This document shows positions 26,661 through 40,795 of a DNA stretch of 41,898 bases, in pieces. The notes under the pieces were generated by a model, which searched no databases, was not told the origin of the DNA, and was given only the letters and a program-made list of their open reading frames with translations. The stretch is from a virus. The translations under genes were made by a program, and so were the position numbers. Location of the stretch: IMG/VR virus record IMGVR_UViG_3300019863_000034, positions 1 through 41,898 of that record; one strand, 5' to 3'. The first letter of the stretch is position 1; the number at the start of each line of letters is the position of its first letter.

Positions 26661-27684
26661 TAAATTAAGATTTGCAACTGTGTGCTCTGGGGTAGGAGCA
26701 CCTGAAGTGGCAATGGAGAGCTTTTTCGACTTTGTGTGGTGCTGTGAAAACGATGCATTTCCAAGCGCAGTGCTAGAGCATAGACTTCCTAATGTTCCAA
26801 ATATAGGCGATATGCTAAACAGAGATAAGAGCTCAATATATAAACACAGTGAAATAGATGGCCTAATTGGAGGCACGCCATGCCAAGGTTTCTCCGTGGC
26901 AGGCGATAGAGGAGGATTGGAGAATGATGATCGGTCAAGACTTACCCTTGAGTTTGTTAGAATATTGGATGAAAAGCGCCCAAGATGGTTTATCTGGGAA
27001 AACGTGCCAGGTGTATTCTCTTCTGGAGGAGGGAGGGACTTTAAGGAAATCATCCGGTCCTTTACAGACATCGGGTATGGCGTTTGCTGGAGAGTGCTTG
27101 ACGCTCAACACTTTGGAGTGCCCCAGAGAAGACGTAGACTCTTCGTTGTCGGATATCTTGGAGACTGGCGACCATCTTACAGAGTATTGTTTGAGTCCGA
27201 AAGCCTGCGAGGGAATATTGAGGCGTTCGAAAACAAGAAAAAACCAAATACCAGAAGACATAGTCCAGGCTCTAAAAAAACAGTCGGAGCTCTATGTGCC
27301 AGAGACATAGAGGGTCCTGATAATATATCTGCAGAAGAGGGAAAGTTATTTAGGTACTCTAAAAGCCACAGGACCACGCACGTAGACCAGAGAGTACACA
27401 GGGATGGGACGTGCAATACTTTAAACACAGGAGACGGCTGCACAAACCAGTCAACGGCTAATTTTGTAACAGAAGACTATGTTAGAAAGCTAACGCCGCT
27501 TGAATGTGAGCGCCTGCAGGGTTTTCCTTGCAACTGGACCGATGTTCCATACAGAAACAAAGATCACGCCCCAAAAGGCCAGAGGTACAAAGCTATGGGT
27601 AACAGCATGGCAGTTCCGGTAATGCGATGGCTTGGTGAGCGAATTTATACCGTTGATCAATATATGAGGCTACAAGATGCCTAA
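26647..27684 (+). CDS. DNA cytosine-5 methyltransferase
   Basis: A 345-aa protein with the ordered C5-MTase motifs: VCSGVGAPEVAME (motif I, residues 12-24), GTPCQGFSVAG with catalytic Cys79 (IV), WENVPG (VI, about 117-122), QRRRRLFVVG (VIII, 160-169), and a C-terminal AMGNSMAVPVMRW (X). It transfers a methyl group from SAM to C5 of cytosine in phage or host DNA. No cognate restriction enzyme is seen nearby, so protection against host restriction is the likely job. The target site cannot be read from sequence. Confidence 0.93.
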   Translation: MKNNNKLRFATVCSGVGAPEVAMESFFDFVWCCENDAFPSAVLEHRLPNVPNIGDMLNRDKSSIYKHSEIDGLIGGTPCQGFSVAGDRGGLENDDRSRLTLEFVRILDEKRPRWFIWENVPGVFSSGGGRDFKEIIRSFTDIGYGVCWRVLDAQHFGVPQRRRRLFVVGYLGDWRPSYRVLFESESLRGNIEAFENKKKPNTRRHSPGSKKTVGALCARDIEGPDNISAEEGKLFRYSKSHRTTHVDQRVHRDGTCNTLNTGDGCTNQSTANFVTEDYVRKLTPLECERLQGFPCNWTDVPYRNKDHAPKGQRYKAMGNSMAVPVMRWLGERIYTVDQYMRLQDA

Positions 27685-34816: not shown

Positions 34817-35006
34817 CGGCATAGTCCAGGAGCGAGCCAAGTACAATAATAAGAAGTACGATGACGGCTTTGATCGGGTAGAGTTTAAAGAGCGTCCTAC
34901 GCACTTTCATACGCTACCATGTGGCTCCAAAGAGATTATTAACTACAAGACCAAAGACAAAGAGAGGGTGACGTGTAAGGCGTGCTTGGAGGTAGTGAAT
35001 GGATAA
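34800..35006 (+). CDS. 68-aa protein with Cys pairs
   Basis: Start ATG 34800. The C-terminal half has HTLPCGS and VTCKACLE, a possible zinc-binding site. The N-terminal part is basic (ERAKYNNKKYDDGFDRVEF). It overlaps the preceding and following genes by 17 and 8 nt. Function unknown. Confidence 0.58.
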   Translation: MSPSNNGIVQERAKYNNKKYDDGFDRVEFKERPTHFHTLPCGSKEIINYKTKDKERVTCKACLEVVNG

Positions 35007-35871
35007 AAAAGAACTGCTTGAGGCATCCTTGGAGGATAAGCTTAAGCAAACTAAAAGACTAATAATGGATTGGTACGAACAATTCGATGGTCAAGTTTAT
35101 GTTGCTTTTAGCGGAGGCAAAGATAGTACAATATTATTGCATATTGTAAGATCACTTTATCCTGATGTGCCAGCTGTATTTGCAAATACAGGTCTTGAAT
35201 ATCCTGAGATTGTAGAGTTTGTAAAGACTATTGATAACCTAGTGGTACTGCGACCTAAAAAGTCTTTTAAATTGGTTATTAGTGAATATGGTTATCCAAT
35301 TATATCAAAAGAGCAAAGCCAATATATTAGTCAGTTTAGAAACGCAAAGAGCGAAAAGACTAAAGATACTAGATGGAATGGTAACAAATGGGGGCTGGGT
35401 AAAATCTCAGAGAAATGGAAGTTTATTGTAACAGACCATACAGATTTAAAAGTTACCGATAGGTGTTGTGAATTTTTCAAGAAGGAACCATTTAAGCGAT
35501 ATGAAAAAGAAACTGGTAGATGGGGATTTGTAGGAGCAATGGCCGGAGAGTCAAGTCATAGAAAAACATTATATTTAAAAGATGAGTGCAATGGGTTTAA
35601 AAAGAAAAGACCTATAAGCAAGCCACTTAGCTTCTGGAATGAATCTGATATATGGAAATATGCAAGATATTTCAACATTGAAATCTCTCCAATATATTCT
35701 ATGGGTTATGATAGAACTGGATGCATGTTCTGTATGTACGGATTGCACCTTGAAAAAGGTGAGGATAGATTTGATAGAATGAAAAAGACACATCCAAAAC
35801 TCTTTAGATACTGCATGGATAAGCTTGGACTAAGGGAAGTGATACGCAAATACACAGGAAGGGAATACTAA
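34999..35871 (+). CDS. PAPS/APS reductase-family protein with Fe-S cysteine set
   Basis: A 290-aa PP-loop protein. SGGKDST (residues 38-44) binds the pyrophosphate of ATP or adenylyl substrates. Cys155-Cys156 (DRCCEF) and Cys241-x-x-Cys244 (GCMFC) match the CC...CxxC arrangement that holds a [4Fe-4S] cluster in APS reductases and related DndC-like proteins. In phages this family may support sulfur metabolism or thio-modification of nucleic acid. No other dnd-like gene is seen in this genome, so the substrate remains open. Confidence 0.82.
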   Translation: MDKKELLEASLEDKLKQTKRLIMDWYEQFDGQVYVAFSGGKDSTILLHIVRSLYPDVPAVFANTGLEYPEIVEFVKTIDNLVVLRPKKSFKLVISEYGYPIISKEQSQYISQFRNAKSEKTKDTRWNGNKWGLGKISEKWKFIVTDHTDLKVTDRCCEFFKKEPFKRYEKETGRWGFVGAMAGESSHRKTLYLKDECNGFKKKRPISKPLSFWNESDIWKYARYFNIEISPIYSMGYDRTGCMFCMYGLHLEKGEDRFDRMKKTHPKLFRYCMDKLGLREVIRKYTGREY

Positions 35872-37495: not shown

Positions 37496-37525
37496 TTGAC
37501 ACAGACTTCCATCCAGTGAGATAAT
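37496..37525 (+). promoter_or_regulatory. Strong sigma70-type promoter of the Fis-type regulator
   Basis: TTGACA (37496-37501), an 18-nt spacer, then GATAAT (37520-37525). It lies 22 nt before the G5-led ATG at 37548. Confidence 0.7.
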
Positions 37526-37547: not shown

Positions 37548-37988
37548 ATGCTTAACTGTTACATAGCCTTAAGGGCTAAATACCAAAAAAACAAAAAGTT
37601 CTTAACCAAAGCAGAACTCAAAGAGATGATCTCTGAGGCAAAAGCTATGGTTCGCAATCCAAAGGCCACGCTTATCGATATTGATGGTCTTTCTGATCTG
37701 ATTGTCGATATTGAGTGCCTAGTCGACACTATGGAGAACATAGATACAGAGGTAAAAAGAAAGCAGCTTGAGCGTGAGGTTGTGACAGGTAGACCTCTAA
37801 GTCAGAATGATGCATTTTCCTTAAATATAGAAAGCCTTAATACCGAGACACTTCTTCATGACCTTAGGCTAGATGCAACAATGCAGGTGTATTTACTGAC
37901 CGGAAAAAACAAATCTAGAACAGCTAAAATATTAGGCGTAAGCCTTAGGGGCTTGAGAGATACGTTTAGAAAGTACAATCTGAGCTAG
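37548..37988 (+). CDS. Fis-type HTH transcription regulator
   Basis: A 146-aa protein whose last 35 residues (VYLLTGKNKSRTAKILGVS then LRGLRDTFRKYNL) match the Fis/NtrC-type HTH: helix, N-K-S-x-x-A-x-x-L-G-hydrophobic turn, recognition helix. The N-terminal 100 residues are helical and acidic. With its own strong promoter and a position at the border of the late packaging genes, it is a good candidate for the late-gene activator. This role is inferred. Confidence 0.72.
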   Translation: MLNCYIALRAKYQKNKKFLTKAELKEMISEAKAMVRNPKATLIDIDGLSDLIVDIECLVDTMENIDTEVKRKQLEREVVTGRPLSQNDAFSLNIESLNTETLLHDLRLDATMQVYLLTGKNKSRTAKILGVSLRGLRDTFRKYNLS

Positions 37989-38193
37989 AAATTAGCCAGA
38001 ATTAGCCACTTCTGCCCATGCCTACGTTAAAATACTAGCAAATGAGTGCAAAACGCCAAATAAGGGCAAATAAGGCGCTCTGGTGCTATGTTTATATAAG
38101 TAGCGAATAAGACGATAATAGATAGTATTAAATACTGACCATCTACAAATATATTTACAGACTATAAAAATGAGTCCACACTAGCTAATACAC
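37989..38193. other. Non-coding AT-rich stretch with short repeats
   Basis: No gene is seen. It holds a tandem ATTAGCCA pair (37991-38008), a double AAATAAGG (38058-38075) flanked by CGCC/GGCG, and a palindrome AGTATT-A-AATACT (38124-38136) whose core (ATTAAAT) resembles that of the early operator at 24628-24642. These are possible protein-binding sites upstream of the structured RNA. Confidence 0.5.
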
Positions 38194-38400
38194 TATAAGC
38201 CTTAGGGGACAGACCACCGACTGGCGTGCGGAGCTATAGGCAAGCAATGCACGGTTAAAGGAAGCCGATGAGTATACCGACTGACGGTTACCGATGCTTA
38301 GGCAGCTAGAGCCTTAATCTAGACTTCAAGAGAGGGAATACTTCTTAATTGAGTGAGGACCGATGGCGTTGGCACCTACCAATCCATTGCGAGGGGGAGA
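38194..38400 (+). ncRNA. Structured, GC-richer non-coding RNA candidate
   Basis: A -10-like TATAAG (38194-38199) precedes about 200 nt that are roughly half G+C by hand count, against a clearly AT-rich surrounding. It has no ORF of note. Stems visible: CGTGC/GCACG (38225-38253), GTA(t)ACCG/CGGTTAC (38272-38291), TTAGGC/GCCTtAA (38298-38316), and ATGG..TTGG/CCAA.CCAT (38362-38387). The motif CCGA(C)TG recurs five times (near 38215, 38264, 38277, 38291, 38360). No tRNA, tmRNA, RNase P or intron core was recognised. Strand is inferred from the -10 box. Confidence 0.5.
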
Positions 38401-38402
38401 GT

Positions 38403-38471
38403 ATGAACCAGATGCTCTATTATAGTATGGCTATAAAAAACGAAGCTTACATTATAATAGGGGGTTCTTAA
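38403..38471 (+). CDS. 22-aa ORF behind the structured RNA
   Basis: GAGGGGGAGAGT leads directly to ATG 38403 and a 22-codon frame (MNQMLYYSMAIKNEAYIIIG...). The initiation signal is strong, but the peptide is tiny, so it may be a leader peptide. Most of the frame (38415-38462) forms a long hairpin with a 10-bp stem (CTCTATTATA with TATAATAGGG), which could couple its translation to downstream expression. Confidence 0.35.
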   Translation: MNQMLYYSMAIKNEAYIIIGGS

Positions 38472-38545
38472 AGCCTCAGAGTGCCCTCTTTCGGGTTACC
38501 AATAGATTTCTAAGTACTAAGTAAGAATATAAATAAGGACAATAT

Positions 38546-38710
38546 ATGAGCAAAGAAAAGAACTATAAGAGACCAAAGAGAAGCGTTAAGATAAATGGTA
38601 AATACTATTCACTTAATACTCTCAAGAAACAAAAAGAGATAAAGAAAAACAGAATGAGTCAAAGACCTACAGTCACACTAAGAAAACAATCCAATCAATC
38701 GATTCAATAG
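38546..38710 (+). CDS. 54-aa very basic hypothetical protein
   Basis: MSKEKNYKRPKRSVKINGKYYS... contains about a third Lys and Arg. AAGGA stands 7 nt before the ATG. Such basic peptides often bind nucleic acid. It lies between the structured RNA and the likely cos region, so a role in packaging or RNA binding is possible. No family recognised. Confidence 0.5.
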   Translation: MSKEKNYKRPKRSVKINGKYYSLNTLKKQKEIKKNRMSQRPTVTLRKQSNQSIQ

Positions 38711-38945
38711 AAAAAAGCCACGGGTCCTCCCTATATATATCAAGAGCGGGCTGCCCAGTCGGCGAAAAAGCGCAAGTTTTTGTCAAAAATGTTGACCTCG
38801 ACAATTCCGGTCCAGATGTAAGAAATTAAAGAGTTTTTCATAAAAAAATTAAAATAAAGTTAAAAAGCTGTTCGAATATTTTACAAATTGTTATTTTTTG
38901 TGGACAATTTATTAAAATACAATTGTTAAATCGTTGGGGGATGAT
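38711..38945. other. Probable cos region upstream of the small terminase
   Basis: In lambda-type phages cos lies just before the Nu1 gene. Here a GC-rich patch at 38719-38765 stands out from AT-rich DNA: CACGGGTCCTCCC, then GGGC-T-GCCC (38748-38756), a two-fold symmetric site suited to staggered cutting. To its right are A/T tracts and repeated AATTGTTA (about 38886 and 38923), possible small-terminase or IHF-type bending sites. The exact cut is not known. Confidence 0.45.
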
Positions 38946-39506
38946 TTGAGCGGTGGACTAAAGTTGAGCATGACGGATTTTGCTAAGAGAAGAGACGTTA
39001 AGCTCAAAGATATCAAGCAGGCAATCAAAGATGGAATCATACCTGAGGAAGCTGTTACGCTTGGAAGCAATAACAGAAAAATAATAAATGTTGAAATTGC
39101 CGAGCGAGCTTGGAATAAGCATTATGGTTATGAGCCAGCTTTTAAAGAAGAAGAAAAGGTTGGAAGCGGATATCGCAAAGGGTCCATGATGGTAGATGAG
39201 GAATCGATGCCTCTCTACTCCAAAGCAAGGGCATCTAAAACAGCTTATGAAGCGAAAATAGCACAGGTTAAATACGAAGAGCTTACTGGTTCACTTGTAA
39301 AAGTTGAAGAGGTTAAGACTGTTGCAAAGGATATTGGCAGGAATTTAAGGGATGCTTTAATGAACATTCCTAATAAATTGTCACCAGTACTAGCAGCAGA
39401 AACAAATGTGGACGAAGTAAGCAAGGTTCTTGAGGCAGAAATAAGAGCGGCTCTTGAGAATTTATCCAGAGGAAATTACAGTTTTAATACAAGCACGGAG
39501 GAATAG
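38946..39506 (+). CDS. Terminase small subunit (Nu1-like)
   Basis: A 186-aa protein (lambda Nu1 is 181 aa). The N-terminus (TDFAKRRDVKLKDIKQAIKDGII) looks like the winged-helix DNA-binding part, and the C-terminal half (SKARASKTAYEAKIAQVKYEELTGSLV, NLRDALMNIPNKL) is the helical part that binds the large subunit. Start TTG 38946 is chosen because GGGGG stands 5 nt upstream; a TTG at 38934 would include that Shine-Dalgarno. It recognises cos and brings in the large subunit. Confidence 0.83.
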   Translation: MSGGLKLSMTDFAKRRDVKLKDIKQAIKDGIIPEEAVTLGSNNRKIINVEIAERAWNKHYGYEPAFKEEEKVGSGYRKGSMMVDEESMPLYSKARASKTAYEAKIAQVKYEELTGSLVKVEEVKTVAKDIGRNLRDALMNIPNKLSPVLAAETNVDEVSKVLEAEIRAALENLSRGNYSFNTSTEE

Positions 39507-40795
39507 TGGCCAAGGTAGAAGTAAAATGTTCTTTTGATAAGAAGGTAAAACTGGGAGAGTTGATCCCACATCCTAAAAACAACAATGTTCATCCAAAAGA
39601 ACAAATTGAAAGACTGGCAAAGATTATTGAGCACCAGGGGATGAGAGCTCCAATAGTTGTTTCAAATAGATCAGGATATATTACAAAGGGGCACGGAAGA
39701 CTAATGGCATTAAAGATGCTTGGAGTATCTTCTGCACCTGTAAACTTCCAAGACTATGAAAGCGAGCAACAGGAGTATGCAGACCTTACAGCTGATAACG
39801 AAATAGCAAGGTGGGCGAAGCTGGATCTAGACTCTGTAATGGATAATGCTCATCTGCTAAAAGATTTTGACGTTGATCTACTTGGTATAAAAGACTTCGA
39901 CATTCCTGATTTAGACGATTTAATAGATGAAAAGGTCGAAAGGGAAGAAAAAGAGCAAGTTCGCACCGAGGCTTTTAATGAGAAAGAAGATGTAGTTCCT
40001 GATGTTCAAAAGAAAGTAATATCTAAAAAAGGAAATGTGTGGCTACTTCCACTACTAGATGGTGGATTTCATAGGGTAATGTGCGGTGATAGCACAAAGA
40101 AAGAGGACGTTGAAAAACTTATGGCAGGAGAGTCTGCAGACTTAGTTGTTACGGATCCACCATACAACGTGGCCTATGAGTGAAAGACAAAAGAAAAGCT
40201 TGTGATCAAAAATGACAGCATGAGTAATGATAACTTTTATGAGTTTTTACTAGAAGTATATACAAGAATGTTTGAAGTAATGCGAGACGGAGCACCGATC
40301 TATGTTTTTCATGCAGGCAGAGAGAGCCACAACTTTATTTTAGGATTGCTTAATTCTGGATTTAAGTTTTCACAGATACTTATCTGGGTTAAAAACACTA
40401 TGGTTATGGGTCGAAATGATTATCACTTTAAACATGAGCCAATTTTATATGGATGGAAGCCTGGTGCAGCACATAGTTGGTATTCAGATCGTAAACAGGT
40501 AACAACATGGGATTTCGCAAGGCCAAGCAGAAATGCAGAGCATCCAACAATGAAGCCTATTGATTTAATATGCTATCCAATAAATAACTCGTCTAAAAAA
40601 GGCGATCTTGTTGTTGATTTGTTTCTTGGATCAGGATCTACTTTAATAGCTTCAGATAAAATGCATCGAAAATGTTATGGCATGGAACTAGATCCTAAGT
40701 ACTGTGATGTTATCATTAGAAGATATCAAGAGCTTACTGGTCAAGATGCTGTATTAGAAAGCACAGGAAAAACTTTTAATAGTTATGTACGCTAA
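39506..40795 (+). pseudogene. ParB-domain / DNA methyltransferase gene interrupted by an in-frame TGA
   Basis: One reading frame of 430 codons with a single stop at 40181. The left part (225 aa) has a ParB domain (IPHPKNNNVHPKEQIERLAK, YITKGHGRLMALKML) and ends in VVTDPPYNVAYE, motif IV of a beta-class amino-methyltransferase. The right part (from 40184) continues in the same frame with KTKEKLVIKND and holds motif I, VVDLFLGSGSTLIA. Homologues usually have Gly right after this segment, so GGA-to-TGA is a likely single change. It may be inactive, read through, or an assembly variant. Confidence 0.8.
40202..40795 (+). CDS. Methyltransferase C-terminal part (possible separate product from GTG 40202)
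   Basis: After the in-frame TGA, a GTG at 40202 could restart a 197-aa product holding FRVMRDGAPIYVFH-like FEVMRDGAPIYVFHAGRE, ILIWVKNTMVMGRNDYHFKHEPILYGW and the SAM-binding FLGSGSTLIASDKMHRK. Alone it would lack the catalytic DPPY, which is in the upstream part. The Shine-Dalgarno site is poor. It overlaps the large terminase start by 11 nt. Confidence 0.5.
   Translation: MIKNDSMSNDNFYEFLLEVYTRMFEVMRDGAPIYVFHAGRESHNFILGLLNSGFKFSQILIWVKNTMVMGRNDYHFKHEPILYGWKPGAAHSWYSDRKQVTTWDFARPSRNAEHPTMKPIDLICYPINNSSKKGDLVVDLFLGSGSTLIASDKMHRKCYGMELDPKYCDVIIRRYQELTGQDAVLESTGKTFNSYVR

Follow-up and report, generated by a model that had tools for sequence, protein, structure and literature searches.

The systems described closest to the locus analysed here are the cos region of bacteriophage lambda and the non-coding RNAs encoded by phages. 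Packaging RNAs (pRNAs) of the phi29 type diverge strongly in sequence. Members of the GOLLD class often exceed 800 nt, and GOLLD and ROOL are often found near tRNA islands (PMC12286853). Lambda requires only cosQ, cosN and cosB, cosQ being a highly conserved 7-bp site (PMC4669245). Its GGGTCCT core is located at 48473, at a distance of 30 nt from the right chromosome end, and the last about 560 bp of lambda carry no annotated gene.

The DNA analysed here, termed the window, is the whole viral stretch of 41,898 bp. Both its ends carry the same 141 bp of the TerL gene, thus the window is a complete circular phage map of about 41.8 kb. A sequence-only reading had singled out a GC-rich, structured non-coding RNA coupled to a tiny ORF. 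The features are present as it described them, but folding, repeats and ORF are no better than expected by chance. Its interpretation holds for the non-coding character, the GC-richness and the placement, and is not supported for the structured RNA. Below, we tentatively consider for the island the role of untranslated leader or spacer in a late transcript. The coordinates of all features are collected in Table 1.

Table 1. Features around the right chromosome end of the window.
Feature	Position	Strand	Remark
Near-perfect sigma-70-like promoter TTGACA-18-GATAAT, upstream of ORF 37548-37988	37496..37525	+	consensus match only
146-aa ORF, last gene ahead of gene-free region	37548..37988	+	weak Fis-type HTH at C-terminus
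Gene-free region, right chromosome end	37989..38545	.	similar regions in G389, G011, G012, G001
-10-like box ACACTATAAG	38190..38199	+	same 10-mer in pre-cos region of L089
GC-rich island, 52.5% G+C, five CCGA(C/T) words	38199..38400	+
22-codon ORF MNQMLYYSMAIKNEAYIIIGGS, SD GAGGGGGAG	38403..38471	+	hairpin about 38405-38467
54-aa basic ORF between island and cos	38546..38710	+	no relatives found
cosQ-like element GGGTCCTCCC	38722..38731	+	single copy in genome; core GGGTCCT as in lambda and many relatives
Inferred cosN (cohesive-end cut)	38749..38761 (about)	+	alignment to relatives whose contigs end there
AT-rich spacer between cosN and TerS; putative cosB location	38762..38933	+	position only
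Terminase small subunit (TerS)	38934..39506	+	TTG at 38946 is the probable start, judged from relative L317

A lambda-type cos region

The large terminase subunit is of the gpA type (PF20454, E = 6e-80; phrog_15) and is encoded downstream of cos. Family matches were also obtained for a lambda-family portal, a capsid-protease fusion, a tape measure and baseplate proteins. The structural genes identified are without exception carried by the plus strand. The proteins scanned did not include an integrase, and an attP or integration site was rejected on this ground.

The cosQ-like element follows the pattern GGGTCCTYCC, which is conserved ahead of TerS in dozens of relatives of this TerL. The two ends of contig G011 have exactly 12 nt in common, and so do those of G015, in both cases 28-29 nt after this element; the ends of G389 share 6 nt. 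We read these shared contig ends as cohesive ends. The window itself is a circularly permuted map; the 12-nt overlaps were observed in the relatives, and the position of cosN was transferred by alignment. The cut is placed about 250 nt downstream of the island, which makes the island the untranslated stretch that comes last on the packaged chromosome, at its right end. The earlier placement just ahead of the packaging genes was correct, and the place proves to be the right chromosome end just before cos; the cos site itself had been overlooked in the sequence-only reading.

The arrangement resembles that of lambda and lambda-like cos regions: a GGGTCCT core, cosN (here putative) about 27-30 nt later, then TerS and a gpA-type TerL, all preceded by a non-coding stretch before the right end. 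In contrast to lambda, the capsid, tail and baseplate genes belong to another lineage and cosB repeats were not identified in this phage. The GC-rich island also differs in that a search of the phage collection, lambda included, returned no counterpart sequence.

Other parts of the genome yielded observations of their own. Between TerS and TerL two adjacent ORFs (39506-40795) both match phrog_498, one corresponding to an N-terminal ParB-like part and the other to a C-terminal methyltransferase part, as if a ParB-methyltransferase fusion had been split. A phosphoadenosine phosphosulfate reductase-like gene (34999-35871) is a possible auxiliary metabolic gene. Within a DNA methyltransferase gene 79 nt (27092-27170) are 83.5% identical to the Caulobacter phage DMCA, the only megablast match in the phage collection when positions 17000-41898 were searched.

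Composition and coding content of the island

Measured as the absence of a plus-strand ORF of at least 50 aa, the gene-free region is the longest of the genome, as had been claimed. The claim of an island of about 200 nt with about 50% G+C was also accurate, including its coordinates. The 200-nt segment at 38199 has 52.5% G+C compared with a genome mean of 39.9%, a value reached by just 0.04% of such segments. It ranks second; the sole higher separate segment (12601) is located within genes. Non-coding character was borne out as well. Six-frame translations had no match in Pfam and plus-strand frames had none in PHROG, on which ground a decayed gene was rejected, and ARAGORN detected neither a tRNA nor a tRNA remnant in the window.

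The gene-free region is preceded by a 146-aa ORF with an HTH_8 match (E = 0.0046) under the curated cut-off. The promoter-like sequence upstream of this ORF agrees with 11/12 consensus bases and has a TG ahead of the -10.

Comparison with relatives

The closest relative found, G389, has 60% portal identity, and long stretches of its structural genes are about 65-73% identical in nucleotide sequence. The next relatives, G001, G011 and G012, share 53-57% TerL identity. All four have several hundred bases without a convincing gene before cosQ, that of G011 including one doubtful 72-aa ORF. In G389 the gap follows the last gene block and precedes a small basic ORF (about 142-145 aa) that adjoins cosQ and is not homologous to the 54-aa basic ORF of the window. 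The upstream operon of G389 ends with a hairpin of 12 bp, flanked by runs of A and T. The order in G389, i.e. operon-closing hairpin, GC-rich stretch, small basic ORF and cos, resembles that in the window. Most of the more distant relatives have a pre-cosQ gap of a few to about 400 bases; L094, L167 and other more distant cos relatives lack such a gap.

An exceptionally GC-rich pre-cos segment of 200 nt was observed in four of the five genomes (top 0.04-0.6%). Besides the window these are G389, G011 and G012, where it belongs to the top 0.3-0.6%; G001 is the exception. The ranks of the relatives derive from sampled genome segments, roughly 20-27 kb per relative. The five genomes were compared once the island was known and the best segment was picked within each region, therefore the GC enrichment is suggestive and does not constitute a formal test.

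Sequence similarity was absent. Homologues of the island were found neither by blastn in phage and plasmid collections nor as an exact pattern in viral contigs, nor in more than 300 loci of relatives or their whole records. A search of 369 genomes from the phylum of a Bdellovibrionales prophage host yielded nothing real; two matches were treated as chance, with an overlap of only 24-40 nt in apparent protein-coding sequence. The islands of the window and of G389 shared no more words than shuffled sequences, and other pairs were at or near chance. The pre-cos position and the GC enrichment are shared with relatives, the sequence is not.

Such a pattern might be produced by an insertion hot spot at cos which collects accessory or decayed DNA, the islands being unrelated acquisitions or functionless remnants. 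The lack of similarity between islands of genomes whose structural genes are about 67-70% identical over long stretches, a composition unlike the rest of the genome and the non-homologous small basic ORFs alongside in the window and in G389 would fit. However, size and position are alike, insertion would in each of four genomes have had to bring in DNA that is GC-rich and free of genes, and family models detect no coding remnant. We consider this origin distinctly unlikely.

Motifs, -10-like box and 22-codon ORF

The island had been described as carrying a five-copy motif. Five CCGA(C/T) words are indeed present (38217, 38265, 38277, 38291 and 38360), yet the most repeated near-exact 6-mer of the island is equalled in 37% of dinucleotide shuffles. 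A count of five CCGAY words was never reached in 2000 shuffles, but the word was picked after the fact. As the repeats are no stronger than the best repeated motif of shuffles, a binding array was rejected. An inverted cosQ copy in the island (38352-38370 versus 38714-38732) was likewise discarded, being within chance (P 0.07).

These numbers bear on the notion that the island functions as DNA, i.e. as an accessory site for terminase and packaging, a termination-related sequence by cosQ, or a replication or segregation site with protein-bound CCGAY repeats. The repeated words, the vicinity of cos and an 8-nt inverted match to the cosN region (CCGACTGG/CCAGTCGG) speak for it. Yet neither the repeats nor the similarity between cos and island exceeds chance (P 0.07 and above), exact inverted pairs of 8 nt occur several times in the same region, and words common to the islands of relatives are not above chance. 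Further, cosB is expected on the opposite side of cosN, and in lambda cosQ, cosN and cosB suffice. A DNA element of this kind thus appears very improbable.

The -10-like box reported in front of the island is present (TATAAG, 38194-38199), but a matching sigma-70 -35 box is missing and a promoter of good quality was not found directly ahead of the island. The 10-mer ACACTATAAG occurs in L089 (5125-5134) and at 38190-38199 of the window; of the 259 loci compared, which include the window as L001, no other contains it. By shuffling, shared 10-mers have a P of about 0.04, which is weak. ACACTATAAG is possibly a late -10 element common to the window and L089.

Downstream, the 22-codon ORF is preceded by GAGGGGGAGAGT and its transcript folds as a strong hairpin (z -3.5). 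An SD-led ORF within a hairpin exists as claimed, but it has no detectable relative in phages and does not exceed chance expectation. Shuffling the same region yields at least one SD-led ORF of 20-80 codons in 29% of cases, and 32% of ordinary 730-nt genome stretches hold a 60-nt hairpin with a z of -3.4 or below. With this background a pre-cos hairpin was also rejected as a conserved feature, although four of the five genomes have one at about z -3.4 or lower.

Folding and RNA classes

The fold energy of 38194-38520 compared with shuffled sequences gave z -0.79. This is not the folding excess expected of a structured RNA, in a test which some real RNAs fail too. Segments of 80-120 nt within the island were mostly between z +1 and -2. 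The local minimum was the 80-nt stretch 38300-38379 (z -2.4 to -3.0); a z of -3 is reached by about 4% of sampled 80-nt genome segments. Rfam covariance models had no match in the window at the gathering threshold, and for 37980-38950 even an E of up to 10 gave none; the loci of four relatives had none either, in agreement with the earlier statement that no RNA class is recognisable. Phage and plasmid collections and relatives provided no alignable homologue in which covarying base pairs could be measured. Among ten island pairs no fold profiles were significantly similar (P 0.08-0.76), and the best-folding part (38296-38400), turned into a covariance model, had no match in relatives. Accordingly, the proposal of a structured RNA was not supported.

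The specific classes that had been suggested fared no better. Like GOLLD and ROOL the island is phage-encoded, non-coding and gene-free; unlike these it is shorter than 280 nt, has no Rfam match and is in a window without tRNA, let alone a tRNA cluster. With a phi29-type pRNA it shares the location near the genome end and the packaging genes. It differs by the absence of an Rfam match, of a fold conserved among relatives, and by the lambda-type TerS/TerL with cos. A packaging RNA is unsupported, and it is also unnecessary for a phage equipped with a lambda gpA-type terminase and a cos site of its own.

One rival would be a discrete, fast-evolving non-coding RNA of about 200-280 nt just before cos, terminal hairpin included. 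Absence of genes together with exceptional G+C at the same place in the window and three relatives, the TATAAG box in front and the strong local hairpin are compatible with it. The ordinary fold energy, the failed Rfam searches in window and relatives, the dissimilar structure profiles and the unproductive covariance model argue against it, and we regard such an RNA as rather unlikely. Quite improbable, too, is that pre-cos phage RNAs form a class diverging so rapidly that turnover of sequence and fold defeats homology searches while place and GC enrichment are kept, such RNAs perhaps acting on late transcription or right-end packaging.

A proposed leader or spacer of the late transcript

Tentatively, and as what may well be the best explanation, we propose that the island, located at the right end of a lambda-type cos chromosome, evolves fast and serves the rightward late transcript as untranslated leader or spacer. 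It would belong to an untranslated region typical of the lineage, which separates the last rightward gene block from cosQ/cosN. Best supported is the architecture, an untranslated GC-rich region ahead of a lambda-type cos; its position and composition recur in relatives, its sequence does not. With every identified structural gene on the plus strand, a rightward transcript would traverse the island in circular or concatemeric DNA and proceed across cos into TerS. Such a course is assumed by analogy with lambda late transcription; transcription of the island, its role as a leader and its start site are inferred. The leader would bear local expression signals, the -10-like box ahead and the hairpin after it.

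Consistent with a leader or spacer are the conserved cosQ, the contig ends at cos, the GC-rich pre-cos segments, the hairpin that closes the operon ahead of the island in G389, and the ordinary folding and motif counts. Against it count the lack of a good promoter directly before the island and the distant cos relatives without a gap. It also gives no reason why four genomes should be GC-rich here without conservation of sequence. For now the island is an unexplained end region, probably regulatory.

The position of cos gives the likely true ends of this phage genome, and the contig ends of relatives are usable for mapping cohesive ends. Should the GC-rich pre-cos region have a function, it would mark a hidden chromosome-end element of divergent sequence, which would belong to a group of cos phages known here from metagenomes only.
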